This document shows, in pieces, positions 38,270-60,834 of a stretch of DNA of 64,000 bases; position 1 is the first letter of the stretch; the number at the start of each line of letters is the position of its first letter. The stretch is from Psococerastis gibbosa (Eukaryota > Arthropoda > Insecta > Psocodea > Psocidae), in assembly GCA_963971405.1 (NCBI GenBank), contig OZ020489.1, positions 17,014,290 through 17,078,289 of the forward strand. Direction: 5' to 3'. The translations under genes were made by a program, and so were the position numbers. The notes beneath the pieces are model-generated. The model had not been told where the DNA came from, did no database searches, and saw only the letters and a list, made by a program, of their open reading frames with translations.

Positions 38270-38645
38270 TCCATTGACCGGCTAGGGCTATTTCCAACAA
38301 CGGTAACGTGGTAGCAGACATTCAAGGCTTAGGTGGCGTCTCCACCGACCTCGCATTGCAGAATTGACGGAAATGTTTATTTTCCTCTATGCCATAGTTA
38401 AAATTGATCAATGATCATACAGTAAAATCACAAACAAACAAACTAAAATTAAAAAATGGCTTCATGGGATATGTTAATTCAAAATATTTTAATAGATTTC
38501 TATAAAAAGAAAAACAAACATTTCCGTCAATGTCATTTGCAATCTGCAATGCGAGGTCGGTGGAAACGTTACCTAAGTCTTGAATGTCTGCTACCACGTC
38601 CCCGTTGTTGGAAATAGCCCTAGCCGGTCAATGGAATGGGCGCCT
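38270..38645. repeat. Nested foldback: outer arms around an inner foldback
   Basis: The outer arms GGTGCCCATTCCATTGACCG...CCAACAACGG and CCGTTGTTGG...CGGTCAATGGAATGGGCGCC are near-perfect inverted copies, closing on GTGGTAGCAGACATTCAAG and CTTGAATGTCTGCTACCAC. Inside lies a second foldback with CTTAGGTGGCGTCTCCACCG and CGGTGGAAACGTTACCTAAG ends. The same two-layer structure is at 60470-60834. Confidence 0.75.
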
Positions 38646-38886
38646 TTGGAGAATTACTACTACTAAACTACATCTGTTCCTGACGGTTTATCTCTCTAAT
38701 GGAGAACTAAACGACATCGTAGGCACTTTTTGGGTCACACCTTTAAGTTCAGGCTAGCTGAACTAATAACTCCGATTTTGGCTTCACAGGCATAGCCGCT
38801 AAACCGCCTCACACAATTGCCAACTCTCTTCAGGCAAGCTAGTGTTTGCGTTCTGACAAGTTTTGAACAAACTCTCCCACGCACGT

Positions 38887-39072
38887 GGTATAGTCCACGC
38901 AAAATGCGAAAAGTATGGCCATGGAATGTTTTGATCCTGTGCACAATTTTTGTTATGCCTTGCATCCAATGCAACAAGGTAACACAAAATGGTGCAAGGA
39001 ATATTTTTACAGTGATGCACAGGATCAAAACATTCCATGTTCACACTTTTCTCATTTTGCGTGGACTATACA
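38887..39072. repeat. Foldback with GTCCACGCAAAATG tips
   Basis: Arms of about 55 bp (GTATAGTCCACGCAAAATGC...GTTTTGATCCTGTGCA and TGCACAGGATCAAAAC...GCATTTTGCGTGGACTATAC, allowing mismatches) flank a roughly 70-bp centre with its own short CCTTGCA/TGCAAGG inverted pair. It is unique in the window. Confidence 0.7.
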
Positions 39073-39947
39073 TGAGACCATTGGACAAAGCAGGATAGGA
39101 TGCTCGGACTGCAGGTTGCTGCTACAAGTCGATATTTCCACAAGCATCCTAGGACTAATCAACCTATAATAACGTACCAATTGTATTTAAGAACCAAATA
39201 GAAACTTCTATGCGTACCTTGCGCATTACAGACAGGTCTTAAAAACACTACATTTCGTCATACAGCAGCAATTAATCAATTAAACAGCAGCTTTCATTTC
39301 CATATTCCAAAGCATTGCAATGTTTGGTCAAAAGAAACACTATCGACGGATTTTCTACCATTAAGACAGTAATGAATCGTCGGAAAGGCATCGATAATCA
39401 TGAATGAATATACTAATAGGTGAATGCAATTTGCCTATAGTACTTGAAAGTTATAGCCTGGGATGGGATTAGAGCCGTGGCTAACATGTATGTAAATGAC
39501 CCGCCGAAGCCCTACAATCTCAGCCCTTCCACTGAATTACTTGGAAATGCATTGCTGGATTGGTTATTCAATTCCGAAGTCTATGAAACCGAATGCAGTG
39601 ACTGGAACATTCCATTACAACGTTATCGGCCATTATCAGATACTGCTGGACGTTAGAACCTGACAAACGCAGTAAAACACAAATATGGATTTTTAATCGT
39701 TTTTTTTTAGTATTACTTCATATATACGAGGGTCTTGAAATCTGGACTGTTAACCTTTTTGGAGGCGCAAACTGTGGGCAAACTACTCGATGGATTACGG
39801 TAGGCAGGTTCAAATTGATCACATATCAGAACTTTTCTGTCTTGTGCTACGTCAATTGGGGGGCGGGGGGCTACTCGGCTTTCATTAGAAGGTCTAATTT
39901 CACAGGAAATATAGATTATACAGCATTGATTCAGACATAAATAATTA

Positions 39948-40035
39948 TATAAATATTGACTTTTTTGTTCTATTACTAAGCCAACCTAGCGGAGTTAGGG
40001 CTATAAGCCCTCTCTTGCACTCAACAGCTAGGCAA
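39948..40035 (-). repeat. tRNA-derived SINE (family T), tail fragment
   Basis: TTTTTTGTTCTATTACTAAG, CCAACCTAGCGGAGTTAGGG and CTATAAGCCCTCTCTTGCAC, then the match breaks. Confidence 0.7.
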
Positions 40036-40689
40036 GCATAAAGTAAATACTGTAATCAAGTTAATTGTTTTGTTTGTAGCACAATTTTAAAAGAATTTGT
40101 TTTGAATTGCAGATTAAGTTTAGAATAAGTTTTAATATAAGTGTTATCTATTAGTTCGAGAGGCTCATCACGGGAATTCCCAAAGGTGCCCCTCTGAACC
40201 ACCAACAAAATGTATGCATAAAAAATGTAACATCGAATGTAAAATATAGTTTATTTATTTCCTTCAAAAATAAAAGATAGAAGAAGTGTCCCTCTACATT
40301 TTGATGCATAGCATCTGGCCGTCACTAGCACCATTTGTCCACTGTTTCAATACTACTTCCACCGGGCACTCCACGTTATCAATTTTTTATAAAACTTTTC
40401 AACAAATAATCAATTCTCATAACAATAACTACCTATCGAAATGTAGAGGAACACTTCTTTTCAAAATATTCTCAATGATGGTCTCCACAATTACGAATAC
40501 CACTATCGATAGTCCAAGAGAAATTTTAATTTTTATGCCCATAGGTTTTTTTCTTTCCTGCTGTCTCTTAACGACGTAATTCAAATTTCAAATTGGATAG
40601 CCTATCCAACATTAACCTCAAAATTTAAAAAAGAAAAACGTTAAAACGTTAAAAATTGCATTACCAGCTATCTCTACATGCTATAATAA

Positions 40690-41524
40690 AGAGCCGGTCC
40701 GAGTTTACTCGAACATGCTTTCCAATTTATCAATTAGTAGGAAGAGAAAATGAATAATTTCATGGTAAATTTTCCTATGGTTAAATTTCGGATATCTCGG
40801 GGGGGGGGGGTGTCCACCTGACGTCACTGGAGGTGAGGTAACCTCAATATATTTAAAACACATTACAACACAGTAATAATGGCTGGGCAGGCAATGCATT
40901 TCAGCGTGAAGTTTCTATCATTTTTTCAAAAAAAAATTTTTGCGCAAAACAAAATAGTTTTTTGGGAAAGCAACCTGTCCGGTTTCGTTACTCAACGTAA
41001 CACCTAAAACATGCCTGAAGGTAGAAATCATCGATAGAAAAGTTTCGCAGAAATATTATTTTTTAATCATTTTTCATTAAAATTAAGTTATTTTTATTTT
41101 TTTACCCCCAGAAGCAAACTATCAAGGGATAAGCGACCCCCCGCATTTTATCAACAATAAGAACGACTAGAATATATGTGAATTAAAAAGAAATCGTTGG
41201 AGCCGTTTTTTGAGAAATAATTTTTTTGACGTTTTTTTGGGAGTTTTTTGAGAATGATACCCGCCCAAATTGAGTTAGCCCCAAATAAAAAAAATGGTCT
41301 CGAGGTATGATTTTTGTGAGCCTACATGCCGAATTTCATCAAAATCGACCGAGTAGTTTGCCCGGAAATCGATGCACAGACAGACAGACAGACAGACAGA
41401 CATTTCGTAAAAACCACTCTTTTGGGTTTCTGGGACCTGAAAACGTGTAAATCCGTTGAAATCTCGGAATCGAAAATTTCGACCATCACAAAGCTTTCCT
41501 CATGCTACGTATAAATTGGAAAGC
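40690..41524 (+). repeat. Family A repeat, full-length copy
   Basis: It starts AGAGCCGGTCCGAGTTTACT, has the G-run and CCACCTGACGTCACTGG (CRE at 40819-40826), GGGAAAGCAACCTGTCCGG, a GACAGACAGACAGACAGACA tract, and ends with the hairpin at 41494-41524 (one stem base changed, CTCATGCTACGTATAA). Confidence 0.85.
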
Positions 41525-41879
41525 AACAACTACTAACACGAGCCAAGCCAAGCAGGTAACAATAAATTATTGGCATGCACCGGGTAAAATGAAAATCAAG
41601 GAGCTGTCGATGTTAGAAGCCAGAGAACTGGTCAGTCCATCGACCTTCGCGTAAGCTCAGCTACTGGGCGACCTTGACGCTCTGGCTAACTCATCTTATA
41701 CTGCATTCAACATAATAAAAACATTCGCGATTGACTAAGTTCATAGCGAATTCCCAACTGCTCAAACTCACAAGAGAAAAATGCAAACACGATTTTGTGA
41801 TTTCTGCCAAAATTTTCAGATCCTACGCCAACCCCCTCTAATACTTTTACGAAATATTATCAGTTAAGGGCTACGTCTG

Positions 41880-42240
41880 AGGCATACCAACGAATTCTTT
41901 CAGGTTAAGTGCGGGGCAGCTCACAGGACCGACGCCGCTGGAAAAACATGGGGGAAAACTAGTGCAGAAGAAAGACAGGCCGCCAAAGAACCTACCCAGA
42001 TACCAGTCAATTGCGGAATTTAGGTTAACTATGACTACCTTCAGAAACATCTCCATCGTATAGGTGTAGCAGCGGAGCCTTTCTGCCCATTATGCGACAC
42101 CCGGGAAGAGATGGACGGAGATCACCTTAAAACGTGCCAGGCTCTTGTCAGTAGCAGAGGTTCACCAGATAATGTGTTGTATTGGGCTACGAGAAAGCTG
42201 ATGGCGGAAGCCAAGTGCTATGGTGTAATTTTAAAAATTA
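41880..42240 (+). pseudogene. Jockey/R1-type LINE fragment, C-terminal zinc-knuckle region
   Basis: AEFRLT and, after a frameshift near 42040, DYLQKHLHRIGV, then CPLCDTREEMDGDHLKTC and WATRKLMAE. The pattern C-x2-C...H...C after an HL.RIG stretch is typical of the end of the second ORF of jockey- and R1-like non-LTR elements, downstream of RT and RNase H. Nothing upstream of about 41880 is recognisable, so this is a 5'-truncated, frameshifted relic. Confidence 0.6.
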
Positions 42241-42514
42241 AAAAAAAAAAAATTAAAAAAAAGGGGCTACGTCTGGTCAGATACATATATCATTTATTAT
42301 CTCAGACGATATTGATAAATTGACAAAGTCCATGTTAGCTTAAGGGGCATCACTAGACATAGCTTGCATTGCTGTAGCAACAACAATAATTTCATTTGTT
42401 GCCGACGACAGTTACGTCCGCTCCTCGCAACACATTTCACAAGTATTTCAGTAATATTTTCCAAATTCACTTCAAAATACTCCGCCATGGTAAAAAATGA
42501 AATAAAGCAACTTA

Positions 42515-42660
42515 TTCAGGTATTACTAAAAATATACATAAAAGTGGCCGGTTTCGACACTAGGCCATCTTTATGCTAGAGAGTGGTGTCTGTATGTCTG
42601 TAGCCTGACGATGACCTAATGCCGAAAGCGGTCGCTTTTATACATATATTTCGTAATACT
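42515..42660. repeat. Palindromic pair of CGAAACCGGT-type repeat units
   Basis: The left arm (reverse of GATGGCCTAGTGTCGAAACC, GGCCACTTTTATGTATATTT) faces the right arm (CTGACGATGACCTAATGCCG, AAAGCGGTCGCTTTTATACA). A single unit of the same kind is at 54165-54250. These units resemble a retroposon 3' end. Confidence 0.55.
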
Positions 42661-45261
42661 TGAAAAAGGAATTCATAAATCAACTGAAGGAGTACGCAGG
42701 AAATGTACCAAGAGCTGAAGAGGAAGGTGCATGACGGAGAGAGCTGGAGGAGAGAGTTGCTGCCAACCAATCGTTGAAATTGTGACTTCAGAAGAAGAAT
42801 ACGTCACTACGTTATTTTTTATTATTTATGTTTCTCAAGACTCTAGCCGTCAATGCCATTTTGCATACGACCAACATGTAAAAACCGGTTTTAGAGGTCA
42901 TGCCCTCTTGGAGTCGAAATAAAATCAATAAGCACTGCAGTACACTATAATTTTTATGAAACACAATAGAACTAATTTCTGGGACGGCACTGGTCCCTCC
43001 CCTACAGTTCAAATCAATTAAACAACAAAACAGTCCGAACTGAAACGTATAGAACAAAAAACTGCATTGCTGTATAATATCGTTAGTTTTTAGTCAAGTG
43101 CAATATTCCAATTCTAATCAATCGCCCATAGAGTTTGGTAAAATGCAATCAAAACGTAGTACCCTTTTTGCAAAATAACGGCAGTTAGTTGGGGCTTCCT
43201 ACCGGAGGGACGGGGCTTTTGTACCTGCGGCGCTACGACATATGCTAGTATGCCCCCAGATGACTACTGTATGCACAGCTGCTGATCTATTTGAAGCCAA
43301 CGACGAAGCCCGTTCGCTACCTACTGGACTACAGGATGTGGACACGCTAAGTAAAACGTACTACGGAAACTCATTGTGAAAAAATTATTACTTAGTACTT
43401 TGTACTACGGAAAGTTAAATTTTCCATGTAGAGCTTTATATGGATTATGGCCCATTGTATAAAGCCGTAGCCTACCATCGCCAACAAGAGTATGTATCCG
43501 TATAATTATACGGAAACATATCTGGCCCATATGGCGAGACTTACCGGTATTTGTTCCAGCTCTCCGCCAACTCTCATACATATGAAATGTAGGCAAGACT
43601 ATACTTCCTTTAATTTGGCACACTGCGACGAGACTTAAAAGTCATTAACGTAAAAATTGTAATACTTTCAGTTAGAATCCGCCACTAAATGTACTGTCCT
43701 CCGTATGTCAGACCGGCAATGAACATAGTTTTTATGTTATTACGGTCATGTTTATTTTATGCCTGTTTAAACATACAGTTTATTCCATTGAAATTCAACG
43801 GTTTAACCCAAATCATGTTAGTAGCATATCTAGCTATTTCTCGGAACGTTGCCATGTCATCCGACAGTTAACTACTGCGCGTGAAATAAAAATATGTTAA
43901 AATATGATGTACGAAATAGTTTTCTACAGCTTGGAAAGACTAAATCTGTAATAAATTGCTAAGTAGATTTAATAACAAATAAAAATGCAAAAAAAACATC
44001 AGAATTTTTCGGAGGTTTCCATTGAATTATTATTTTTATTTAATTTATAAAGCAAATGAACTAATATTTCCATTTCTCATGAATATATTAAAATGTAATA
44101 AGCTTTCTGTGGAATCAGGGAAGTCCGATAGGAGCCCTGAATACAAATAAAAGAAATGGAACCTCCTTTGGTCAGACAGACGAGACAAGGCACATAGAAT
44201 GAAATAAAGAATGAGCCAGACTGGAAAAAATACATAAAACCGCAATGGCAGGTGGGCGACAGACTGAGGCAGCTGGCTTGAATACCCCAGACGAACCCAA
44301 TCAAACCTGGACACCTACTTTTCACTTCTCAATCCCTCGCCTCTACATTGTTAATTCAAGAAATAATAACTTAATTGAAGAATCCACATTCGTAAAGCCG
44401 TGATTTTTTTTAGAATGTCGTAATGTTTCACGTTCGTAATGTACGAGGTAGGGACCCAAAAGAAACCGAAACATTGTTTTGATCTTGTTGGACGTATTGG
44501 CGTCAAACTGAAAATCTTAACGGTGCGTTCGAAATGATCGTTCAATACCATAGCTATGATTGGTGGGCACAACCAGGAAACTGTCAGCTAGCTTATTTGG
44601 CGTTTCAGCGGAATTTTTTTCGAACAGCAGCCTTAGCACGAGGTACCAAGTTCGGATAAACTTCTTTAGAATACCAAATGGTTTTGTTTACAATTTTGAC
44701 CCCAGTAATAAATTTAATTGATACTTCGTGCTACGGCTGCAGGGCATTATTACTTGCAGTATTCAAGGGACAGCGACTTCCTGAAACAATTTCCTCGCAT
44801 TAGAACGCGTGTTTAGTTCAAATATTCAATGACAACCTCTCAGAACTACGATGATTCACCAGCGCAACTATTCATTACACCCTTATATTTGTGCCACCCT
44901 CACACGCTCCGACTTAAGGAGGTACAGTTTTTGACTTATTGCTCTTGCAAACGATGTAAAAATACACGATATATTTATCTTATCTATCTTATACAATTAG
45001 CGCAGGCACAATAAGACAGTTCTTAGACTTACGGATTAATATTAAGTTTCTTATCACTTCATGACGACCCTAAGAATGAATACTACACTGGTCGAGCGAC
45101 AAAATTTCGTTGCCAGCGGGTTTTTGAACTCTAGATCATCTACATTAAGAGCCAACAATCAAGCATTTGGTTGGCATTCCCTAGCATGCCAGATACGATA
45201 ACTTGAGACGGAAGTAGACTAGAATGAGCCACCCTCACCGTAGCAATAAAAATAGACTTAC

Positions 45262-45393
45262 CGGGCGTGGTTGTATATGGGGTGGGAGAGGAAGGCCTGG
45301 GTGATGATGTTGAGCCATCATGGCCACGTCGCTATTCATATAAATCATCTGTTGCTGTTGCTGCTGTTGTTGCTGGTGCTCGGGATTTGGATG
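45262..45393 (-). CDS. pum: Pumilio, coding exon with polyglutamine tract (exon 3 here)
   Basis: It encodes a low-complexity part of the Pumilio N-terminal region. Seen directly: acceptor CATGTTGTTTCAG at 45394, donor CCCG/GTAAGT at 45262/45261, 132 bp, entry and exit both phase 0 (44 codons). The product reads HPNPEH, nine Gln in a row from mixed CAG/CAA codons, MIYMNSDVAMMAQHHHPGL and PLPPHIQPRP. Gln-rich stretches are usual in Pumilio N-termini, but this segment has no strongly conserved motif of its own. The assignment rests on strand, splice sites, phase and its place between two recognisable Pumilio exons. The plus-strand intron just upstream carries an RTE tail only 64 bp from the acceptor. 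Confidence 0.82.
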
Positions 45394-45456
45394 CTGAAAC
45401 AACATGAGAACTCAATAAGGGATCTAAGGGGGAAATTAAACCGATTTTGACAGGCA

Positions 45457-45702
45457 TTGATAAAGAGGCAATTTTGTGCAACCCATACGCTAAGGAGAGA
45501 AGATGGACCCCTGCTACAACGTGAGAGGGACTACACGGTGGCGGGCCCAAGACCTATAGGACGACCGAGGATTTCCCTTGAAACGAAAGTGAGGGAGGAC
45601 CTCAGGACCCTCGGTCTCTCGCCGGATGATACCCAAAACCGAAACACCTGGAAGATGAAGATCCGTGCCACCGACCCCGTAGGAGGGATAAGGCGCCGTT
45701 GA
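45457..45702 (+). pseudogene. RTE-type LINE, 3' coding tail fragment
   Basis: GRPRISLETKVREDLRTLGL, DDTQNRNTWKMKIRATDP and a stop parallel the end of the LINE at 2-2455 (GRPKISLASKTRKDLL, QDRVTWKRCCRAADPP). Both are followed by AAGTAAGTA. The sequence is clearly a different copy or subfamily, 5'-truncated. Confidence 0.65.
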
Positions 45703-46930
45703 AGTAAGTAGTTTGTGCAACCTCGGAAGAATGGAGACCACTTGAAGATTTGCACTGCCCTCACCCAACCAAACGAAGACATCACGAATCTCTCCTCGAT
45801 GAATAGACGAATGATTGAATAACCACTAACCGGCGTTGGATAAAGTAAAGTAAAATGTAGGAAAACATAAGCATTTTTAAAACGGAATTAGTCGAGGTGA
45901 TAATGTAGCCACGTTGCGTTCAGCAATATCGCAGCTTTGTTTATGTAAATTTATTATAGCAGAGACGATGTGGGTCAATTAGTGTGATATCTGCAACTCA
46001 GATTACCGATAGCTGCTGAGTGGGCGCGAATGAACCTCCGATAACAGCACAACCGTGCCCTAAGAATCGGTAATGCCGGCGGGCCTATTTTGCGAGGACT
46101 TAACCGGCTCTCCTTCGGAAGACGTATCTCAAGAATCGTAGGATAAACTTCAGTTCTTTAGAGGAGGTCCCATCTCTCCTATATAGAACTCAAGGACATT
46201 CCACGCTGACCACTAACGATCCCACGCGTACCTTACGCTTCCTATAACTATTTGCAATGGGCAACTAGGAATTCAAAATGGCGGGCCTCGCTCTGATTAG
46301 TGGGGCGCAATTGCTAAAGACTACCATACTTATCTTATGGGATAAGAAGTGCAGCTCACCACATTCTATTTTAATTATTTTCAAAAAGAATTAAAAGTTA
46401 ATATCGTTGTTTGTTATAATTCTAATATGGCAAACTAGTACTTTTTCGCTTAAAGTTCCGTTGGCACTGACCTCGACATTTCATTCCTTTTTATTCTTTT
46501 TACTGAATCTTTACATTGTTAAATAGATGTACGATATACTGCTTATAATTATAATATTACAATAGTTATGTATCACACTTGAAAAAATTATGATAAGCAT
46601 AGTTAAATAAGTTAAGTTAAGATTTGCATATTATTGGACATCGTCTGTTTGAATTGAATTGAAAACGACTTTATTGAATAAAAACAAATCAAAAGGCGAA
46701 CAACAAGACTATAAAGTCTTCTTTTCATGCTAACCTTAAAAACTAACATATTGTATATAAAATCAATCCTTCGAATAAAAACCAGCTAAAAATGGTATCC
46801 CGCACAAAGACAAATTAGATATATTTAAATAAATTCTCAACAATGGACTGAGTCTTGTTATGTTTGCAGATAAATGCGTATTTATTTATTTTATTTTAAC
46901 TCGATGTTCAGTGGATTGTGGGCCCCATAG

Positions 46931-48229
46931 TACGTGGCTGGTCCGACAAGTACTTAACCTCAACGTCCCATGGCGGCACTATCGCAAGAGACATTCAAAA
47001 TCGTATAGTACACTCCAGTGGACGTCTGTCAAAATTTCAGTTGAATCAGACTAGTAGTTTTGTCTTGCCCACTTGTAGAAGAGGGGCGTGTAGCGGATGT
47101 TAGGAAAATGGAAAAAGAACAATATCGATCGCTGATTAGATTCTTGTTTTCGGAAGAGAAATCGCGCAGCGAAATCAAAGACCGCTTGGTGGCTGTATAC
47201 GGTGGCTCTCCTCCATCGATGGCGACCGTCAAAAATTGGTGTAACTAGTTTCGACGTGGTCACACGTCGGTTTTTGATGAGCCACGCCCACGTGCCCCGA
47301 AAACTGCTTCTAGGGAGGATAATACGACAAAAATCCACGATCTCGTATTGGCAGGCTGCTGATTGAAGTTGTGTGAGATAGCTGAGACTGTAGGCCCCTC
47401 AAAAGACCAAGATAGTTATATCCTGCATGAAATTTCGGGCATGAGAAAGCTGTCGGCGCAATGTGTGCCGCGTTTGCTCACTCCGGACAACAAGCGCAAC
47501 CGTGGGACCACTTCAGAGCCGTGTTCGAGTTCGACGCTGTTTAAGCGAAATCCGAAGGCGTTTTGCGTCGTTTCGTGACCGTTGACGAAACATGGATCCA
47601 CTGGTACACACGAGCCCAAGGAACAGTCGAAAAACAGTGGACTTTACCCGGAGAACGTGCTCAGAAGGCGAAAACTGTTCTCGGTCGGCCGGAAAGGGGA
47701 CGGCTCCCGTTCTCTTGGACTCACAAGGTGTGATCTTCATCGACTACCAGGAGGAGGGTAAAACGATCAAAGGGCTATGCTATGCTGAATTATTGGGCCG
47801 ATTCGACTTCGAATTGGGGAAAGAACGGCCCCATTTGGTGAAGAAAAAAGTGCTCTTCCACCATGACAAGGCACTGGCTCACACGTCCGCCCTTGACACG
47901 GGCAAATTGGTCAAAATGGGCCACCATCCACTATATTCTCCAGATTTGGCCGGATGCGACTTCTTTTTGTTTCCAAACTTGAAAATTGGGCAGAAATTGA
48001 GAATTGAGAATTGGGCAGAAATTTGAGTCGAATGAGGAGGTCATCGCCGCCACGGAGGCCTATTTTGCTGACCTCGAGAAAAAAATTTTCAGGCGGGTTA
48101 AAGAAGTTGGAGAATCGCAGAGTCAAGCGTATCGAGTTAAAAAGAGACAATGTTGAAAAATAAATCGCCACTATTCCAAAATTTTCGTTCTTCTTTTGTA
48201 GGCTAAGTACTTGTCGGACCAGCCACGTA
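46931..48229 (+). mobile_element. mariner element with both terminal inverted repeats, 1.3 kb
   Basis: The left end TACGTGGCTGGTCCGACAAG...TACTTA and right end TAAGTACTTGTCGGACCAGC...CACGTA are inverted copies of about 28 bp, each bordered by a TA dinucleotide (46931-46932 and 48228-48229), the target duplication of Tc1/mariner elements. The length is standard for mariner. The near identity of the two ends suggests insertion was not ancient, although the transposase is broken. Confidence 0.9.
47060..48150 (+). pseudogene. mariner transposase, inactivated
   Basis: A DDE/D cut-and-paste transposase. The reading starts near 47108 with MEKEQYRSLIRFLF and a helix-turn-helix region (SEIKDRLVAVYGG, ATVKNWCN). 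A TAG at 47246-47248 and a TGA at 47360-47362 interrupt the same frame; both look like single-base changes. A frameshift near 47570 precedes VTVDETWIHWYT (first catalytic Asp). Another precedes GVIFIDYQEEGKTI, LFHHDKALAHTS (second Asp) and HPLYSPDLAGCDFFLFPNLK (third Asp). The second-to-third spacing is about 30 residues instead of 34, suggesting a small deletion. A short duplication (GAATTGAGAATTGGGCAG) follows at 47997-48020. Confidence 0.88.
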
Positions 48230-49086
48230 CATGTTTGTTAAATATTTTATTGCACGTTAGCCAAGGATGCTTCACTTCTTCCCATTAGGTAAGAGCTTGG
48301 TAAACTTGTAATTGCGTCAACCATTCAGAGCAAAATTATTCTCGCAAAATAGGTACCCTGGCAATATCAAATACAGGGAGTCGTGAAGGGGGGGGGGGGT
48401 AGTGGGGAGTTCTGCCCCATGTCCGCCCAAACAATGGCTTAAAGTTGCCAATTGACAGGGGACAAATTGGCGGCGGTAAAAATAAGGAATGCATGAATGT
48501 AAATAATTAAAGTTGATAGCCAGTTGGAGTAAAGAAGATGTTTTATTTTGTTTGGGGTGGTGCCGGGAGAGGTGAGAGAACTTGGCTTGACTTTGTACAA
48601 ACCAGCAGCCAGGCGTGTTGTGGAAATGTTATAATAAACAGGAAAGGCACAACATTACACAAATTAATTAGTCTATCACTGACTCTTTTTTTGTTTAAAT
48701 TATTAACTCTGGTAATACGATAACTTGGCACTTCGTCCTATGCCTGCTGTTTGCAGTTGCCAAATCACCCCCAAACCCCTATTTAACGGAGTAATCCGTA
48801 AGGATCCCTAATGGTCCTTTTGATCCATCAGGTTTAAATCCTTCCGTCACACTTGCCGCTTACCGTTGGCAAACCTCATATTCAATATATCTAGATAGGA
48901 ATTACATCGATGAATACTGTTCTGTTCTCCTCACAAACGAGAGTTGCCGACGAGTTCTGAGAAAACAGGTCTTTACTCAAGAATTATTGTCTGTTTATAA
49001 AAACCAACTCTATTTCATATAGGCCCTGTATTATAGGGCATCCCCGACCAGATTCTGCCTCAGGTACCATATTTAGTGGTGGTTAC

Positions 49087-49283
49087 CTGAATCATCTCTT
49101 CGGCTCCAAGGGTCCATCGCGCAGGCAACTTTCCAGGTACTGCGGGGATGGCACCCGGAGGGAACTCGTGGTGATCTGAACCGCGTTGAAGCACGTACCC
49201 AATCATCGTGTCGTCCTGACAGCGAAGGGGATTGTGAACCTGGGGAGTCACTAGGTTTGCCTCCTCCCCGGGCCACTTCATAT
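49087..49283 (-). CDS. pum: Pumilio, first coding exon (exon 2 here), start codon at 49281-49279
   Basis: It encodes the first 65 residues: MKWPGEEANLVTPQVHNPLR, CQDDTMIGYVLQRG, SDHHEFPPGAIPAVPGKLPA, RWTLGAEEMIQ. Vertebrate Pumilio has RSQDDAMVDYFFQRQ...KHRWPTGD in the matching place. Splice signals are strong: acceptor TTTTTCCTCTTTTCAG at 49284 and donor ATTCAG/GTAACC at 49087/49086. Start choice: the exon begins AT ATG AAG. If exon 1 ends at 51906 as proposed, the in-frame codons just before it are TAA TAA GAT, so this ATG would be the initiator, with G at -3. The exit phase is 0, matching the next exon. Confidence 0.87.
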
Positions 49284-49935: not shown

Positions 49936-50316
49936 AAACGAGCTATCCGTATTGTCACAAAAAGTTCGTATCTTGCTCACTGCAGACCCCTTTTTAAAGC
50001 CGCTAGAGTCCTCACTGTTCATGGCCAGTATGTCTTTAATTGTCTCTTGGCCGTAAAGATGAATCCTGGATTGCCAGCTCGGAGTACAGTGCACTCTTAT
50101 AATACGCGATCGGTGAAAGGGTTGGATATGCCTAGGTGTCGCCTGAACAAGTCGAGGGAATCTTATCCGATACTTGCACACCGGTTTTGCAATAAGCTAC
50201 CATTTTTAATAAGTCAGTTGGATCCATCTTGTTTCAGAACATACATTAAGAGCAGATTTATTGACGCCTCACTATATAATTTGGATGAGTACGACCCCAG
50301 GAGCTGGACTATTTAA
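49936..50316 (+). pseudogene. Jockey-like LINE, C-terminal coding fragment
   Basis: An open stretch of 126 codons reads KRAIRIVTKSSYLAHCRPLF, KAARVLTVHGQYVFNCLLAV, HSYNTRSVKG, ILAHRFCNKLPFLISQLDP and YNLDEYD. The order CRPLF, L.V...Y.FN, HSYNTR, YNKLP is characteristic of the end of the jockey/CR1 group RT polypeptide. No start or catalytic RT motif is present, so it is a 5'-truncated remnant antisense to Pumilio. Confidence 0.75.
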
Positions 50317-51905: not shown

Positions 51906-52255
51906 CTTATTACAAATCCAATGGAAATAAAACTGTAGCACTTAGTAATATACTAGTATTTTATACACCGAAATACCCGAATACGAGACCGAAAGCACAA
52001 ACACAAGCAAAACAAACCCTGTTTACGAAGAGTTATACAAAGATTCCGATCACTTATCGATAAAATTTTACACCTTTATAGAAATTAGAGACGTTGAGAC
52101 ACTATTTACACATATTGACAGGACTACTGTACATAGAGCGAACATGGATTGCTCACGATATTAACACCGAAGAAACATCCTACCCGCACTAAGCATTTTT
52201 ATTCATTTGTTGTCCTAGCCTCAAAATGGCGGCTTCGCGCTTGCGCATTTCCGTC
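51906..52255 (-). other. pum: Proposed non-coding first exon of Pumilio
   Basis: Between a CpG-rich island at 52.2 kb and a good minus-strand donor (AATAAG/GTACGT at 51906/51905) lies 350 bp without a long reading frame. If it is joined to the exon at 49283, the junction reads TAA TAA GAT ATG AAG. That closes any upstream frame and leaves the exon 2 ATG as the start. The 5' end is a guess; no TATA box is evident. RNA evidence is not available here. Confidence 0.45.
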
Positions 52256-52290
52256 GGCTCAGCCGCTCAGCTGAAATCTGAATCTGTTCA
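52205..52290 (-). promoter_or_regulatory. CpG-rich promoter-like island with NRF1-like and YY1-like motifs
   Basis: The minus strand reads TGCGCAAGCGCG (one mismatch to the NRF1/Ewg palindrome YGCGCAYGCGCR) followed by AAGCCGCCATTTTGAGG, which contains the GCCGCCAT core of YY1-type sites. At least seven CpGs fall within about 50 bp in an otherwise CpG-poor neighbourhood. It is about 3 kb upstream of the first coding exon, a sensible place for the Pumilio promoter. Promoter activity is inferred. Confidence 0.5.
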
Positions 52291-52630
52291 TGACATTTTT
52301 TATTATTTTACATTTACCAGTTATATTATTATTTTATAAAAGCTTATCGTGAACGTTCCTTATACAAATAGTTTTTTTCAATATTATTCTGAATTAAATT
52401 TCCTCTTCAGAACAGTACGGTACCACCTTGTCCTTACCAGTACGTACTACACCGCACACCGGCCGTGTGTTCTAGATATGATTGCAGATTGTGATAATTC
52501 AAAATAGGCCTATTTAAATTTGGTAGATTATTATTGTCTAGAAGATATACTAAGAATTTGCCTTCGTTACTACTAGATACACATAAATACTTCCTGCAGT
52601 AAAGTTCTTATATGGGAGACAGGAAATTCG

Positions 52631-52642
52631 CTTCCCGCCAAA
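52631..52642 (-). promoter_or_regulatory. Candidate E2F-binding site 1
   Basis: The minus strand reads TTTGGCGGGAAG, an exact match to the core TTTGGCGGGAA recognised by E2F-DP heterodimers. It is about 380 bp upstream of the proposed Pumilio start region, within a MITE. Binding is inferred from the motif only. Confidence 0.45.
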
Positions 52643-52763
52643 AAATTTTTTTTAAATATCTGGGGCTACTCGCCACGCACTCAGTGAATAGTGGTCCATT
52701 TTTATATATATATAGATCAATGTAAAGTAAACGTATCAGAGGGCCCCCGGATTAAAAAATGTT

Positions 52764-52771
52764 TTTGGCGC
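52764..52771 (+). promoter_or_regulatory. Candidate E2F-binding site 2
   Basis: TTTGGCGC followed by GC fits the E2F consensus TTTSSCGC. It is conserved in position with TTTGGCGC at 35098-35105 in the other family H copy, so the site belongs to the transposon and not only to this locus. Confidence 0.4.
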
Positions 52772-52917
52772 GCTCAAATGTCCCTTCTGCCTGTTATAAA
52801 ACTTTACTTGTGCCTTCAGGTTATCATTGTTTAACGCTCTTAATCAATGAAAAATTGAAATGCCCTTCAATTTCATATTTCTCATTGACGATTGACGTAT
52901 GTCGAAGCCCCACCTAA

Positions 52918-53041
52918 GGCGTCTATTCCACCTACGTCAATAGTCAGTAGTAAATGTGGTATTGACATGGTAGCAGACATTTTTAGTATGTCTTTAATGT
53001 CTGCTACCACATTTACTATTGACGTAGGTAGAATATGCGCC
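52918..53041. repeat. AGGCG-tipped foldback (simple form), copy 1
   Basis: The arms GGCGTCTATTCCACCTACGT...CAATAGT and ACTATTG...ACGTAGGTAGAATATGCGCC are inverted copies, and so is the inner pair GTAGCAGACAT and ATGTCTGCTAC around TTTTTAGTATGTCTTTA. The loop and tips recur at 55664, 38270 and 60470. Confidence 0.75.
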
Positions 53042-53264
53042 TAAACTATCTATCTACTATGTGTATACGGTGCTTGAGACTTGCTGCTGTGAAATTAAAA
53101 TCCGCCCAATTAGCCAATGACTGTGAGAACAATAAAATGTCCGCCTTGTACCGGTACCTCATGGATGACGCTCATTTTTGGGCAGATGTAGGCCTATTTC
53201 AATTTAAATTATACCCATGTCTTCGTCTATTCTTCCTCTTTCAGGCCATGCTATATTTTTTTGT

Positions 53265-53400
53265 GATAGGGCAAAGGGTTCGACTTTGGGGGAGGAAATG
53301 TGAGGACGACGGGCCCCACGCTGGACGGCCATCAACCTCCACTACCAACGACAATGTGCAACATGTGCGTGACTTGTTGAACACTGATTGACGTGTAAGT
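53265..53400 (+). pseudogene. mariner transposase fragment, plus-strand half of an inverted rearrangement
   Basis: CEDDGPHAGRPSTSTTNDNV, QHVRDLLNTD, stop, RVSVLLISDK correspond to the linker between the DNA-binding and catalytic domains of a mariner transposase (GRPSTS...VRDLLNTDRR type). It faces the minus-strand fragment at 53435-53645. Confidence 0.65.
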
Positions 53401-53434
53401 GTCCTTTTGATTTCCGATAAATAACTCATTACTA

Positions 53435-53645
53435 CAGTGGAGGTTGATGGCCGTCCAGCGCGGGGCTCGTCGTTGGCGTCTTCCCGACCTTCTGCGAAGG
53501 CCTTGTGCAACCGGAAAGGCAATCGTCGTCGAAAGCCTTCTTCAACATTATAGTGGTTTCCGTAGCTCCTCCAGTTTCACTCAAAACTTAATCACCATCC
53601 GCTGCTCAAGCGAACGCTTTTTTCTTCTTGCACCGACTCACATCT
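53435..53645 (-). pseudogene. mariner transposase N-terminal fragment, minus-strand half
   Basis: The minus strand reads EQRMVIKF, stop, VKLEELRKP, then a frame with RRLSTTIAFP and another with PFRLHKAFAEGREDANDEPR, AGRPSTST. This is the N-terminal HTH region and the start of the linker of a mariner transposase. GRPSTST occurs in both halves, so part of the gene is duplicated in inverse orientation around 53400-53435. Confidence 0.65.
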
Positions 53646-54084
53646 CACATGGAACAACTGATGTGACCACTACAACGATCGGTAGCCAGCTAACTCTTGT
53701 TGGAACTTGTTGCCAGATCCCCCCCCCCCCCCCCAAAATCTGAGCCAGTAATACGCGCGCTTACGCTTACAGTCCCCATAAAAAAAATTCACTGACATTA
53801 CTTTCCGTACAAACCCTGTATTGCGGCACCTACACTAATATTTAGATAAATAGTAAAAACATGTACGGGTACCGATTCTTTTAGAAGGCATATCTATAAC
53901 ACTGGTCCACGTGTCTTAGATTTTAATAATTTTAGAATATTACACATGGGTGGTAAGGGAAATTTGCTGGACTCCTTATTGTTGATAGAAATAATAAAAA
54001 GTAATGAACTCTGGGAAAACGTTCTTAACCATGTATGCCAAACGTCCATGAAAAGACCACCACTGTGTTTTTACTTGTCCATTT

Positions 54085-54250
54085 AAGAAAGAAAATTGTC
54101 GTTCGGCCCACTCACATAATTAACCCTTAAAAATTAATACAAATTAAATTAAAGCCAATTTATGTAGTGTTGTATGTCTGTAGCCTGACGATGACCTACT
54201 GCCGAAACCGGTCACTTTCAATATATTTTAGCAATACTTGACAAAGTTAT
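54085..54250 (+). repeat. Repeat E end followed by a CCGAAACCGGT-type unit
   Basis: AAGAAAGAAAATTGTC and GTTCGGCCCACTCACATAAT are a deleted repeat E copy. About 40 bp later CTGTAGCCTGACGATGACCT, ACTGCCGAAACCGGTCACTT and TTTAGCAATACTTGACAAAG match the palindromic pair at 42515-42660. Confidence 0.5.
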
Positions 54251-55202
54251 TTTATTTTCCCCTACTCCTAATACGTCTCGTCCGGTAGACCTCAAATTTT
54301 CAGTTGGTGCTGAGTATCAAGCATATTGGCTGATTACCCGGCGTACTGGTATAGCCTACCTAGTTTCTTAACAGCCGCAAGCCTAACCTTTTTTTCAACA
54401 TAGCTTTCTGTAATTAGAAATGTAAATAATGTATGGCATACAAGTGACCGAAGCTTCACTAAATTTGAGTTAATTGAAACCTATCAACTTGTTGATTGAT
54501 ACAGTCAATTGCAGAGGTATTGTATTCTATTTAAAAAGTAAACACAATACACATACAAAATAAAAATAGTCGGTATCATAGTAATATGTTATAGACAAGT
54601 TTATGTACAAACTATGTATACATTAACCATAGTAGGCCTATGTATGTAACCTAAAGTCTGATGCAATATTGTGATCAGCATCTCAGCAACCAGACAAGCC
54701 TTTTGCATTTAGTTTAAGGCACAGCAAACGGATTTTAGCTTAGTGAAAGTCAGATATGTCTGGCTGTTTAAACCTACATAGCCTTCCCAAATTTAATATT
54801 ACAAGTCAATTCAAATAATTATATTGAATAGCAATTTTGTACCATGTATTCAACTTATTCCCGTTTCCACGTCAGAAAGTGGAAAGGAAATTCGTTCCTC
54901 CCACTACATTACTATTTTGTAACTATAATAAAAAACTTTTTACACCAACAAAAGCAGCCCGGAGGTGAAGACTAAGGGCAGACTTGATTCTGCTCCCTAT
55001 AACGTCACGGGTTACACTATGTCATGTGTCCTATTCATACCGATGATTCGCAATAGTGGCATTTTTATTTAATTTTTCACTATTTTGACAGAATTCCTAC
55101 TATATTCATCACTGAAAACGCTTTTTTAATTTTTGATGACATTAAATAGGTTTCATAAAGCAAACAATTACATCAAGTTTGAATGTTAGTTAGTTAGCGG
55201 CC

Positions 55203-55365
55203 CGATCATGGTGAGTTTAATACCGGGGTTAATATAATACCCTGGTATTAAAAATGTAAACAAGATAATTTTACAATGGAAAGTGCTATTCAAAATTTGC
55301 TTGTTAACAGTTTTAACCCCAGGAGTAAGTTAATGCCAATCGCCATAATCGGCGAAATTAAGGAA
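55203..55365. repeat. Foldback with ACCGGGGTTAA arms, copy 2
   Basis: GATCATGGTGAGTTTAATAC, CGGGGTTAATATAATACCCT, a centre TGTAAACAAGATAATTTTAC, AATGGAAAGTGCTATTC, and TTTTAACCCCAGGAGTAAG. The centre is the reverse complement of that at 19282-19439. The outer arms are different from those of copy 1. Confidence 0.6.
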
Positions 55366-55449
55366 GACGTTCCCGACAAGATTATAGTATAGTAACCTTT
55401 ACAGAACTTTACATGACAAATTGAAGAATCCGCATTAAAGAGTGAATCG

Positions 55450-55650
55450 GAGTACCCCCACTAGGCGTTTTTACATGCAGTCAACTTTACAGGAAATATC
55501 GATCGCAGAGCCGTGAAAAATATCCCTTAAATTAGCAGAAATGCTCCTCTACATTTCGATACATGACGTGGCCATCACTAACACCAATTGGCCACAGTTC
55601 TAGAACTCCTTCCTCGGGACTACCACACAAATCGTTTATTTTTTTTTTTA
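55450..55650 (+). repeat. Family D repeat, longest copy
   Basis: AATCGGAGTACCCCCACTAG, CAGGAAATATCGATCGCAGA, AAATGCTCCTCTACATTTCG, CATCACTAACACCAATTGGC and TTCCTCGGGACTACCACACA. The 55664 foldback begins about 14 bp after its end. Confidence 0.6.
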
Positions 55651-55663
55651 TCAAATTCAATAA

Positions 55664-55803
55664 GGCGGGGATTCCACCGACGTCAATAGTGATAGTAATG
55701 GTGATATTGACGTGGTAGCAGATATTTTTAGACTGTCTTTAATGTCTGCTCCCACGTCAATACCACCATTACTATCAATATTGACGTCGGTGGAATTGGC
55801 GCC
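55664..55803. repeat. AGGCG-tipped foldback (simple form), copy 2
   Basis: GGCGGGGATTCCACCGACGT...CAATAGTGATAGTAATGGTG and CACCATTACTATCAATATTG...ACGTCGGTGGAATTGGCGCC are inverted copies. The loop GTAGCAGATATTTTTAGACT is shared with 52918-53041. Confidence 0.78.
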
Positions 55804-58390
55804 TAATTGATATTTTATTTTTTGACTAAAGGCTCTCCCCCTTCCAATTGTCTCCTCAGCTTTCAGAATTAGCAAAAAGTCAGACAATTCGGTTAAATAC
55901 TTAAGTGTATTTTCAATATACTTTGTAACACAATAAGATATTTCGTAGGGCATTCGTACTAATGCCCATCATCAAGAACACTGTCCAATTTGTTTGGAAG
56001 TCTAGTAACATCACTGTTTTCACCACGAGAAATTTTACAGCCCTTAAATTTTACAATGTTCTCAAGTTGTGTCACCGTCACCACTCTAAATTTTGCAACC
56101 AAAATTTTTTGTTGTGAAATTGAAACGAAAATGTATTTATTTAACATACAAGTATAGAGATATAACAACTAAAATTAATTAATTTGAGTCTACAAGTACA
56201 TACGCAAATTTTGATCTGCTGCCTTTTGTTGTTCCCTTCATAGGAAAGATACCACAATTGTTTATGTCTCAGTTTTAAGGGTCCGTCCAAATGCCCCATT
56301 GGATCGAGACATAACTATGACATGTGGAAGAGTTGCTAGGGTCACACGAATCCTACCTTCTGAATAAGGGAAAGATGGACCCTTAATTATAGTTTTCCGG
56401 AAGGCTTTACAGAAACTTCGAAATAAACTTCTCAAGGTATGCATTATTTAGATTTAGTTCAGCAGCCAAAGCACAATGATTCTTTCTCTAGGTACATAAT
56501 TCTTTTCTGTATACGTACAAGCAGAGATTTCAAAACATTTGTTAACAATGGGTGGCCAGGTCATTTTGCCGAAATTAATTTATTCCTAGCTAACAGTAAA
56601 TGTTGTAAAGATATAAAACTGATTTTTAGAAAAAATCATATAAATGCAAGCTTTCTTCAAGCTTGTATCTTTTACGCATTTTTGATAATAACATGTTCAC
56701 ATCTTTGCGGCTGTGGAACAATTAATTGCTTTCCTCAAGTCTTGCTTACAAAATATTTATAATCTCTGCCCCAAAAGGGTTATATCAAAGGGAACCTAAA
56801 GAATACAGAATATATCGAAGTGCTTCAGAAAAATATAGGAAGCTAAAATTTATGCTTCAGTGCATTTATTCAAATTTGACCTGTGACTCTTTATACAAGA
56901 TACAAGAAACTGACTTAGTATTGTGATTAGAGAGAGGGGGAGTTTCAAACACCGGAAATTGCGATATACGGACTGTACAAGCATTTATACAGAATGGGCC
57001 AAATTCATCAACAATTTTCTTGGAGCTAACCAAATTTAGAAAAATTGGCTCATTGTTAAAATTGCTTCTAATCATCATGTGCGTTTTTCATCGAAGTTGC
57101 ACTCTTTTTTCCTTGAACCCACTACCCGCGGGCCAAGTGCATATTCTATTAATATTATATATAATATTAAATAATTATGACTTTTTACTTGTATGTATAT
57201 TGTATATCGTTCCTCAACTTGACAGTAAACTTACTTTTCTTTTTAATGAAATCCCAAATTTTGCATTTCTCTGTATTTCAGAAAGCATTTTCATCAAAGC
57301 TTATTTTGCAGATTTGATCTAAAAAATAACGCTTAACGCACAGCTACGATGTTTCAGAACTAAGGGACATTTTCCCCATAGAATAAATATTTACTTTCAA
57401 GGAAAATAAAGAACTTGGAAATTTTCATTAAAAAGCGGCAGGTTAGACCTTACCCGCAAACGTCCGGAATTTCATTTATTTTAATTCTTATGGCCAATCT
57501 CGGATGATTTTTCAGAAAAAAATATGACCAGTCGACCGAATATTCGACCCACGCTGCATAATAGTGGTCGCGATGTTTCCATGTTGACATTTTAAACGGT
57601 TTGTTTTGGTTACATTAATTATTTCGGCGACTAGAGGTTGATTTTTTTTACTTAGGTGAAAAACGTGGAGTTTAATGAAATAGTAATTCATAGAACTGCA
57701 GCACATAGCAGATAAGAAACTCAAGTGAGAAAAAATACAGGTGGTCAAAACATGAAATTTTAAATACGGTATCACAGAGCCAAAAAGGCAATTAATAATA
57801 AAACCTTTCCTTCTAGGATATTGTTCTATTATTTTGCATTTGCAGTTTCATGCTTCGCCGAGAAAAATTAATAATAACCGTGAAACTAGTCTGTATTTTG
57901 TTTCCACATAAGACACTGATTAAACATATTGCCATATTCAATGGTTTCATTCCCATTTTTAAAACCAACAAGTTAATCTAAGATGCATTTTTTACATTTA
58001 TCACTTTGTACTCAAAAATAGGGCAGATGGTGCCATTAAAGCAATGCCACGCACGTTTAAATAAACAGACTGGGACTTGTGCGGGTCTACAACTACTTGC
58101 CAAATTTAACAACTCAGGTAAGATGAGAAAGAAATATAATTTTTACGAGCGATTTGCTTGTAACAAGCACCTAAATATTATTTTACCAGCCATGTTAAAT
58201 CCGCGAGGTTCTGTTAGTCCCGTCCCTCCGTAGACACCAGTAAAAACAGAGTGGAAGAGAACACATTGGGTCATTTAATTCAAAGATCAAATGATGCTCT
58301 CAGATCCACTTTCCACGCCATAGTTCAGAAACTTTCCTCAAACTTCTTACGCTGTTACTTTCCCCTAATATTTTTAATATAAATTCAATA

Positions 58391-58813
58391 GGGGTGTTCA
58401 CTGTGTTGGGTTTACCCTACGGGGAAGTAGGAAATGAGGGAAAATGGAAAAATAGAACTCGTTTTTCGATTAGAAAAATGATGCCATAAGGAAACGTGTT
58501 TCCCAACATTCCCACTTTACTCAACTCCTAGGTTGGGTAAACTGCACATAGGGAATCGAAAACGTTCATATTTATTGTTGTTTTGCTTTTTCATTAATTT
58601 AAAAAGGAGCTCTGAGACAGAAATAAATATTTAAAAAAACATAAGGAAACATGTGGCAAGAGGTGGACTACGGCAGATGCTCATAAGTTAATAGCTGAAG
58701 GCAAAGAAACTTTGGAGGTATGTTACGTTAGGTTTTTCTATTTCTGAGATCCTCACACTGAGATTTCATTATTTTTCCCATTTTCCCTTTTCAACCAACA
58801 CAGTGAATACCCC
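58391..58813. repeat. MITE with GGGGTGTTCACTGTGTTGG ends
   Basis: The termini GGGGTGTTCACTGTGTTGG (58391-58409) and CCAACACAGTGAATACCCC (58795-58813) are 19-bp inverted repeats with one mismatch, 423 bp end to end. The interior has no reading frame of note. A GGGGTATTCACT tip also opens the element at 62926. The target duplication is unclear. Confidence 0.7.
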
Positions 58814-59403
58814 TACTATTGACACTGAAAATCTGGCATTGTGGAATCAGTTACTTGAATACACGAGTCTTTAATAGTAACCAAACCATACCACACCGAT
58901 GTTGAATTAAATGAAGTGTTGGGACGGCAATCTACACGAGCTATTTTTTTATTCCAGAAGCTAAGAGGGCTCCATCGCCAAACGAGATGCTTCAACCAAC
59001 TTAACGTGTAATGATGTCTCATCATAGCTTGAAACGCCTCGGTAAAGAATACCGCACTGCACCACCATGCATTGGTATTGCCTAGTGCAGTACTACTTAC
59101 CCAGAATTTTCAAGCGATGGTTGGTTTGGGGAATGTCGTTGAGCACCAGAGCTACAATCTTTAGCAAATAATCTGACAAGTGACAGCTCTTGCAAAAGCA
59201 CTACGATTTTACACTCATTATTCTTCGTACATTCGTCAAAAGCAATAACTAGACGGAACGTTCTTGTTGTAAAACTTAGGGTGGTTCCCACCAAGTAAGA
59301 GTAATCGTTCCTGCGGGTAAAGGCTACTAACAGGTACGTTTGGGTACTATATACCGACAGTCGAAAGTTACAGTAACTTCTCCTTCTGAATATGACCGGC
59401 GTT

Positions 59404-59800
59404 ATTTATTTTTTGTATCGAATTTATTGTACAATTAAAATTATTACACTATTAATATAGTGTTAAAATGAAAGTAAATTAATAATCAGTTTGGTTTCAG
59501 CGTAATATCAAGTTTGTGCCAAGAAGCTAACCAGAAAATTTGTTTACATCGGAAATACTGTTAGTGGACCATCATCCGCGTGTGGCATTTGCCCTCAGGA
59601 ACGACTACTCCTACTTGGAGGGAACTACCATAAGGAAGTTACGAGGAAAGAATCAGATATAAAGCAACATTTTGGCACGAAGCCCGAATGCAGACAGTGT
59701 TGCCATGATCCAGCAAACAAAAGGCTGAATACAAGTGGGCTAATACAGCCCACAGCCCACGGTTCTCATGGTTTCAGAGGGACTTGCCATGCTGTGTCGG
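59404..59800 (-). terminator. E2F-like gene 3' UTR and polyadenylation signals
   Basis: Downstream of the stop codon on the minus strand, AATAAA occurs at 59423-59428 and again at 59405-59410, giving a 3' UTR of roughly 400 bp. No canonical Pumilio response element (TGTANATA) is present in it. The nearest is TGTAAACA at 59541-59548, one base off. Confidence 0.55.
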
Positions 59801-59952
59801 CTACATAGCCGCACTCCTGTTGCCCGCCGACGTGGAGGGGTATTCGAGGCCCAAATCGAAGAGTTGTGGCAAGCCTTCGTCGGGTCCCAAACTATAAGGG
59901 TAGTCATCTTCACTCATGTCTGCTCTCAGGCACACGAAATCTAGATCCACGT
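59801..59952 (-). CDS. E2F1-3-like transcription factor, last coding exon
   Basis: E2F proteins bind DNA with a DP partner and activate cell-cycle genes; their C-terminus binds Rb. The exon opens at a TTTATTTTCAG acceptor (59953) in phase 1 and ends at TAG (59801-59803). Its 50 complete codons include VDLDFVCLRADMSEDDYPYS, LGPDEGLPQLFDLGLEYP and a short tail ending AAM. The string DDY..SLG.DEG...LFDL matches the Rb-binding core of activator E2Fs (human E2F3 [20 protein letters not shown], E2F1 DYHFGLEEGEGIRDLFD). The rest of the protein must be encoded at higher coordinates; none of its exons was found up to 64000. It is on the same strand as Pumilio, ending about 7 kb upstream of that gene's promoter. 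A different protein with a similar acidic tail is possible but less likely. Confidence 0.8.
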
Positions 59953-60469
59953 CTGAAAATAAATTAAGATTGATTTTAGATTCCATTGTACAAAGCTTCA
60001 TGGTCTCAGAAGCGAAATTTCATAATCTGTACCTCCTCGCGATGAAGATAGAAGCGCGTAATGGCGACTGAACAGATAGGGGGACTGAGTTTGAGTCGGA
60101 ATAAGGGAAAAATACAGTAATTTCAGTGCAGGTCACTCTTTCGTGGGTTAGGAAAATGGCCTCGAAGTCGGAGGAACTCAATCCCGAATACAAGGCAACG
60201 GGAAACCACTTTATTACAATTCCCTAGCAAATGAATACAATTGCCATGATGATCGCCAATTTTCGACAGAAGAGGCATTTAAAGAATAGAAGTACAATGG
60301 AGAACTCCAAACAATGCGGGAAAATGGATTGTACTTAATTTATGGAGAGATGAGCATGGTATCACTTTTTGTTCCACAAAGAAATACAAGTTTATTACAT
60401 TGTTTTTTGGCGGTCAAACTAACGTACAGCAAGAAAGATCTAGACGACGGAGTATGATGACTCACCTAA

Positions 60470-60834
60470 GGCGGGGATTCCACCGACCTGCAAGTGCAAA
60501 ATACAGACATTCAAGACTTAGGCGGGGTTTCCACCGACCTCTCATTGCAGAATGCAAATGACATTGACGGAAATTTGAATTTTTCTTTTTATAGTAATCT
60601 ATTAAAATGTTTGTACTTAACATATCCCATGAAGCGATTTTTTAATTTTCATTTGTTTGTTTGTGATTTTACTCTATGATCATTAACTATGGCATAGAGT
60701 AAAACAAAAATTTCCGTCATTGTCATTTGCATTCTGCAATGCGAGGTCGGTGGAAACCCCGCCTAAGTCTTGAATGTCTGCTACCACGTCACCGTATTTG
60801 TATTTTGCACTTGCAGGTCTGTGGTATCCCCGCC
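60470..60834. repeat. Nested foldback: AGGCG-tipped outer arms around an inner foldback
   Basis: Outer tips GGCGGGGATTCCACCGACCT...GCAAGTGCAAAATA and TATTTTGCACTTGC...AGGTCTGTGGTATCCCCGCC. CAGACATTCAAGACTTAGG and CCTAAGTCTTGAATGTCTG mark the outer-inner junctions. Inner arms TTAGGCGGGGTTTCCACCGA...TTGCAGAATGCAAATGACAT and ATGTCATTTGCATTCTGCAA...TCGGTGGAAACCCCGCCTAA. The left outer arm lacks about 20 bp (GTGACGTGGTAG region) present on the right. Confidence 0.8.

Follow-up and report, generated by a model that had tools for sequence, protein, structure and literature searches.

The window analysed here, a stretch of 64,000 nucleotides from the psocid Psococerastis gibbosa (assembly GCA_963971405.1, contig OZ020489.1, positions 17,014,290 to 17,078,289 of the forward strand), carries four short hairpins that are copies of very common small non-autonomous DNA transposons (Table 1). 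Inverted repeats are present at all four sites named in a preliminary description of this DNA, and the 38-kb element begins at 38261, the start given there having been 9 bases late. The four elements are 124-384 bp long with inverted ends, and none contains an open reading frame (ORF) of at least 100 amino acids, one ORF starting within the final 7 bases of the 52.9-kb element. They share a loop motif and their tips (GGCGNNNATTCCA), which are those of a family of miniature inverted-repeat transposable elements (MITEs). The core GTGGTAGCAGACATT has 13,090 + 13,247 (26,337) exact matches in the genome searched, which comprises 409 Mb in 68 contigs, and its reversed control has 1 + 2, so that the sharing of this core is far beyond chance. 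The 52.9-kb, 38-kb and 60-kb elements served as queries for similarity searches of the genome, with the 55.7-kb element left out, and 40 places were scored for each, among 605, 3116 and 1252 first-look candidates, respectively; the scored relatives of the 38-kb element are 95-99% identical to it, itself excluded. The arms of these elements had been described as specific to each copy and a single-copy source had been envisaged for each arm type, but the arm types belong to high-copy subfamilies.

Table 1. Hairpin elements of the window and their parts, in window coordinates.
Feature	Position	Strand	Length (bp)	Flanking triplets (left/right)	Remark
Composite hairpin MITE, subfamily B (38-kb copy)	38261-38644		384	TTT/TTT	
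Left inner flank of 38-kb copy, CAAGGCTTA	38323-38331	+			
D (nested sister element)	38332-38573		242		In loop of 38-kb copy
Right inner flank of 38-kb copy, TAAGTCTTG	38574-38582	+			Left type on both sides, symmetric state
Short-loop hairpin MITE, A group	52918-53041		124	TAA/TAA	
Short-loop hairpin MITE, A-group variant	55664-55803		140	TAA/TAA	Arms resemble L083 and L088
Composite hairpin MITE, subfamily C (60-kb copy)	60470-60834		365	TAA/TGA	20-bp deletion in left arm
Left inner flank of 60-kb copy, CAAGACTTA	60512-60520	+			
D (nested sister element)	60521-60763		243		In loop of 60-kb copy
Right inner flank of 60-kb copy, TAAGTCTTG	60764-60772	+			Symmetric state

The comparisons draw on a positional sample of 40 exact-core loci from the first 2.2 Mb of contig C1 and on 68 loci added from similarity searches, which are biased toward the window's own types. 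These loci (L001-L108) give 132 core pairs, 130 of which have both tips; the 130 include some bad pairings, and 10, with true hybrids among them, were flagged for low identity or short overlap; the flank tally uses the full 130. An oriented set, filtered by length, holds 99 elements, and sorting into subfamilies by motif left 6 of these unclassed in the count of rare changes (where B' has 19 members) and 5 in the comparison of consensuses (where B' has 20). A seeming inversion of the loop against the arms of subfamily B was rejected as an artefact of minus-strand loci that had not been reverse-complemented.

Identical triplets flank 71 of the 130 paired elements and are TTA or TAA in 56 of those 71, and the 3-bp flank repeat is exact in 21 of the 30 best copies of subfamily B. 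The profile of the Harbinger nuclease, PF13359, has 150 scored matches among 220 candidates in the genome. On the basis of the 3-bp duplication and of these matches, many of which lie in open frames of 375-384 amino acids, the elements are assigned to the Tourist-like MITEs of the PIF/Harbinger superfamily, with a target duplication that is mostly TTA or TAA. A 2-bp TA duplication of the Tc1/mariner type was considered and rejected, as exact 3-bp TTA/TAA repeats form the largest class. Several groups of PF13359 transposases have many equal-scoring places (e.g., G000, C2:2854741-2855235) with open frames of 375, 382 or 384 amino acids, which suggests recent activity. No autonomous element bearing the ends of these MITEs was identified; the single transposase locus examined (L110) shows no convergent pair of MITE-like tips within 4.6 kb. 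TTA or TAA stands on each side of 79 elements, 23 of which differ in the central base alone, with TTA on one side and TAA on the other; other single flank mismatches number 5, 7 and 8 at positions 2, 1 and 3, respectively, and the central-base class has a binomial p = 1e-11 against 1/9. By our own reasoning, retention of donor overhangs on insertion would predict about 25-33% central-base mismatches; for mPing with TCA ends, 45 of 46 insertions are reported into TTA/TAA (PMC4561436), which counts against this idea. In L026, L086 and L105, elements are inserted flush against the end of another element, with TTA/TAA in common.

Two builds are found among the 130 elements, with loops of 13-17 bases in 25 and of 200-330 bases in 101, and nearly all of the long loops contain a sister element, D, which is similar to short-loop elements such as L029 in its tips and outer arms. 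The arms on both sides are of the A group in 19/25 short-loop elements, D/L029 arms occur in 3/25, and no short-loop element has a B, I or C arm; in the long-loop elements both arms are B or I in 69/101 or C in 25/101, and 0/101 were classed as A group. Within the positional sample by itself, B, I or C arms occur in 0/10 short-loop elements and B or I arms in 27/27 long-loop elements. The absence of B, I and C arms from the short-loop sample is expected if those arms diverged after the entry of D. The arms at 38 kb and 60 kb, previously taken for unrelated sequences, are two points on one homologous series with graded intermediates in copies elsewhere. In an order read by eye without a tree, the series starts with L029 (CTCTCATTGCAGAATGCAAATGACATTGACG), with L056 and the left arm of L115 (which end in ACATACGTTGACG) and with L120 (CTCTCAGTGCAGAATACACATACGG), runs through L012 (CTCTAAGTGCAAAATACACATACGG), L116 (CTGCAAGTGCAAAATACACATACGG), C (CTGCAAGTGCAAAATACAAATACGG) and L106 (CTGTTAGTGCTAAATACAAATACGG), and ends with L013 and L101 (CGGCTAGGGCTAAAWACAAATACGG), B' (CGGCTAGGGCTATTTACAAAAACGG) and B (CGGCTAGGGCTATTTCCAACAACGG). 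The arm types are separate subfamilies, an outcome that the preliminary description had named as speaking against its proposal, yet their ancestry is shared, at least for the 38-kb and 60-kb types.

The 38-kb and 60-kb copies are composites, each an older short hairpin that carries D (about 243 bp) in its loop, a nested element that the preliminary description had not named. The solo loop CATTCAAGACTTATTAATGATATCTG is present in L029, with near-identical forms in L050 and L086, and insertion of D at the TTA of this loop predicts the flank pair CAAGACTTA-D-TTATTAATGATATCTG. This pair is found with small changes in L012 and L056 and with a single left-flank change in L109, the sole exact match of CNCCTTATTAATGATATCTG in the genome. 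With up to 3 mismatches, GCCTTATTAATGATATCTGCTACCACG has 2,024 + 2,019 places in the genome (control 0), and among 100 matches listed 89 read GACTTATTAAT, the solo loop, and 11 differ. Ten of these 11, all new to the collection, were read, and among them L114, L115, L116, L118, L119 and L120 contain D, L111 and L112 contain a different insert, and L113 and L117 are short-loop elements. Among the 120 D-interior matches in the collected loci, 8 have no exact core motif nearby, and none of the 8 proved to be a solo D: four are in composites (L013, two in L035, and L067), the L014 match is a fragment next to an element, and the remaining three (two in L086, one in L105) are in other, D-like sequence. 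This longer D-like interior, near 173-600 in L105, where it lies between L107-type arms, and near 237-370 in L086, is possibly an older relative of D. A second type of composite, comprising L014 with a 312-base loop, L111 and L112, is a short hairpin with arms like GGCGGCTATTCCACCGACCTCGTTTTTCA whose loop carries a different insert between right-type (CATTAATAAG) flanks.

The inner flanks of D occur in three states. Six composites are asymmetric (L012, L056, L109, L115, L119 and L120) and three (L114, L116 and L118) have the right type, GATATCATTAATAA or close to it, on both sides of D; as the asymmetric and right-type composites were found through flank searches, their number is no measure of their share of the family. 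The left type (TTCAAGACTTA) stands on both sides in 98 of the 101 sampled long-loop elements, the others being the asymmetric L012 and L056 and L014 with its other insert between right-type flanks, and the left-type flank GCCTAAGTCTTGAATGTCTG has 3,770 + 3,662 exact genome matches (control 0), in which a two-sided element may count twice. The outer arms of L119 are C-type, its right outer arm being identical to the C consensus, and 373 of 380 aligned columns agree; besides the right flank patch, L119 and C differ by a gap of 6 bases in the left arm and by minor indels within D, and they form the cleanest before/after pair. Empty symmetric loops of either type have 0 matches for four patterns in the 361,785 bases of collected loci. 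Arm-to-arm copying that ran in both directions appears to fit these states best.

The left and right arms of one element have a mean identity of 0.956-0.964 within B, B' and C, whereas B arms and C arms have a mean identity of 0.75-0.76. Between the consensuses of C and B', 11 sites changed in both arms and 0 in one arm, and between B' and B the change is mirrored at 4 sites and one-armed at 1. Rare changes seen in single copies are distributed otherwise, with one-arm and mirrored counts of 51/0 in B, 41/1 in B' and 66/5 in C (158/6 in total), against shuffle means for mirrored changes of 0.08, 0.69 and 1.0, respectively. The replacement of both arms in step that had been proposed for these elements thus holds between subfamily consensuses but not for single copies, whose rare changes are mostly one-armed, and it seems to be in source elements, not in settled copies, that arms become matched. 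Among variants of middling frequency the coupling is imperfect, as at B column 38 (CC 28, AA 9, CA 5 and AC 4), and a number affect one arm alone, as at B column 47 (GG 29 and GA 18). The length of the copied stretches is indicated by D, since the B' and B consensuses both have 11 bp in one D arm that are missing from the other. Four outer-arm sites changed in both arms in the step from B' to B while this difference persisted. Had a whole arm been rewritten the difference would have been lost, so that whole-arm snap-back is disfavoured and the copying tracts look short. The right tip of D, GGCGGGG in B', reads GGTGGCG in B, and this is the left-tip state of B'.

The explanation that we consider probable is short-tract arm-to-arm copying in the source lineages of nested hairpin MITEs, followed by amplification. 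A short hairpin with the loop CATTCAAGACTTATTAATGATATCTG would have taken in D at the loop TTA, and the composite of hairpin and D would then have amplified as one unit. Within source lineages, either arm could serve as the template for its partner, short tracts of which would be replaced by the reverse-complemented copy; template switching by the polymerase or gene conversion inside the hairpin is the most likely route, and a change in one arm would thereby become a change in both. Products with matched arms would spread by transposition and give rise to subfamilies such as C, B' and B. We infer the molecular route, the confinement of copying to one element as opposed to exchange between elements, its site in source elements, and an advantage of matched arms in transposition. 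Of the rewriting through the hairpin that had been suggested before, arm-to-arm copying stands, given that the flank is seen in an asymmetric and both symmetric states and that subfamily arms change in step, but not the whole-arm snap-back form, and none is seen in settled B copies.

Several observations weigh against this explanation. The left and right arms match loosely in every copy inside the window (those at 60 kb only in part, as the left arm is 20 bp short compared with its subfamily consensus), but the statement that they do so in all copies fails elsewhere: the second element of L032 has one B-type and one C-like arm, the L048 element with a 63-base loop has one I-type and one L056-type arm, and L109 has one L029-like and one L056-like arm. 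All three have TAA/TAA flanks, and these intact-flank hybrids, which may be intermediates or exchange products, show that arms of different copies can come together as well. The 5 mirrored rare changes in C exceed chance, as they lie above the shuffle mean and equal the maximum of 300 shuffles, although 3 of the 5 sit in L063, which seems to be an older branch. The Fisher test of 15:1 (consensus changes) against 6:158 (rare changes) gives p = 3e-16, a value that overstates the evidence because consensus sites of one step are not independent events. The change of the left arm near the loop from TAGAA in B' to GTTTG in B, where the right arm reads GTTTA, is consistent with copying and goes no further, as 4 of the 5 bases match GTTTA and L013 already has GTTTG.

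The hybrids also form the basis of an alternative in which ectopic conversion or crossover between copies swaps arms or inner segments and symmetric forms prevail since mismatched hybrids transpose poorly, without any copying within the hairpin. Chimeric copies and exchange between copies have been reported for Galileo (PMC3573991), but hybrids are rare here, where the 130 paired elements include 2 that are clear and L109 is a further one, and all three have matching flanks, unlike Galileo chimeras. As no empty symmetric loop is present in the collected loci, exchange alone would not make the first symmetric inner flank, and we regard this alternative as unlikely. The same absence bears on the possibility that D entered several short hairpins independently, some with palindromic loops, so that the symmetric flanks would be original. 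An insertion of the form TTA-D-TAA would fit the central-base flank pairs of the 23/79 TWA/TWA elements, and L014, L111 and L112 do carry a different insert between right-type flanks; against this stand the missing empty loops, the lack of B, I or C arms in all 25 short-loop elements, and the outer arms that asymmetric L119 and symmetric C have in common, which make independent insertions quite improbable.

Another possibility is that point mutations arose independently in the two arms and that selection, acting on the hairpin or on its binding by transposase, kept the arms matched; one-arm variants of middling frequency such as that at B column 47 speak for it. The inner flank, however, changed as a multi-base block and 15 of 16 consensus changes are mirrored, leaving this possibility with very little probability. 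Capture of foreign sequence followed by inversion, raised previously as the other possible origin of the arms, has in its favour nothing beyond the apparent dissimilarity of the extreme arm types; for the 38-kb and 60-kb arms it is contradicted by their place on the graded homologous series from L029 through C to B, and is extremely improbable.

Short-tract copying within nested hairpins has partial counterparts in several described systems. The rice element mPing is a Tourist-like MITE of the PIF/Harbinger superfamily (PMC4561436), and the present elements resemble such MITEs in being small and non-coding, in their inverted ends and 3-bp duplication with a preference for TTA/TAA, and in sharing their genome with a Harbinger-type nuclease (PF13359). 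They differ in forming a hairpin over their full length, in that the major subfamilies are nested composites, and in arms that vary between subfamilies yet match within them. Galileo of Drosophila belongs to the P superfamily, has 7-bp duplications and includes chimeric copies with non-matching flanks, and one of its terminal repeats is proposed to be copied onto its partner (PMC3573991). Long inverted ends, chimeric copies and this proposed copying are points of likeness, but the duplication here is of 3 bp and not of 7 bp, and the flanks of all three hybrids match. The coral CMITEs have an interior that is more conserved than their ends and an origin by nested MITE insertion (PMC2872659), and they are similar in having an interior common to families with differing ends and in the formation of a new element through nested insertion; they are, however, piggyBac-related, and in-step arm change is absent from the abstract and discussion of that report. 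Template switching that homogenises the arms of inverted repeats has been described in yeast genes (PMC8604942) and RNA genes (PMC8794818), where, as seems to hold here, a block of one arm gives way to a reverse-complemented copy from the other within flanking inverted homology. Both the before and the after states of such a block are found in the present family, with six asymmetric composites as against 98 of left type and three of right type. Those two reports deal with yeast and RNA genes, and the string "transpos" has 0 occurrences in their main texts. A search of the literature returned no account of template switching as a cause of in-step arm change in MITEs, a statement that holds for that search alone.

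What seems to be added here is one nested insertion found in one asymmetric and two symmetric states, together with the contrast between founder and resident changes. The matching of transposon ends during sequence evolution is usually assumed and not shown, and this family provides flank states, intact-flank hybrids and a difference of founders from settled copies at high copy number in one genome, such that copying within the hairpin, exchange between copies and selection could be separated by counting. A nested insertion made symmetric would also yield a longer hairpin that amplifies as a unit. A further and more doubtful possibility is that arm-to-arm copying acts as a gate for the birth of MITE subfamilies, in which a one-sided change or a borrowed arm is copied across before multiplication. 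If so, each subfamily would be a frozen record of a copying event, and L109, L032 and L048 would be intermediates caught in the process.

Other repeats lie in the same window. A mariner-like element at 46930-48230 contains an ORF at 47592-48026 that matches Transposase_1 and has a 31-base inverted repeat at 46930-46960/48200-48230. A likely retroelement at 244-2455 contains two ORFs with matches to reverse transcriptase, the first under the curated cut-off. Several copies of another repeat family, both direct and inverted, lie at 36601-38111 and 61446-62371 and include an inverted repeat of 56 bases at 62023-62078/62316-62371.

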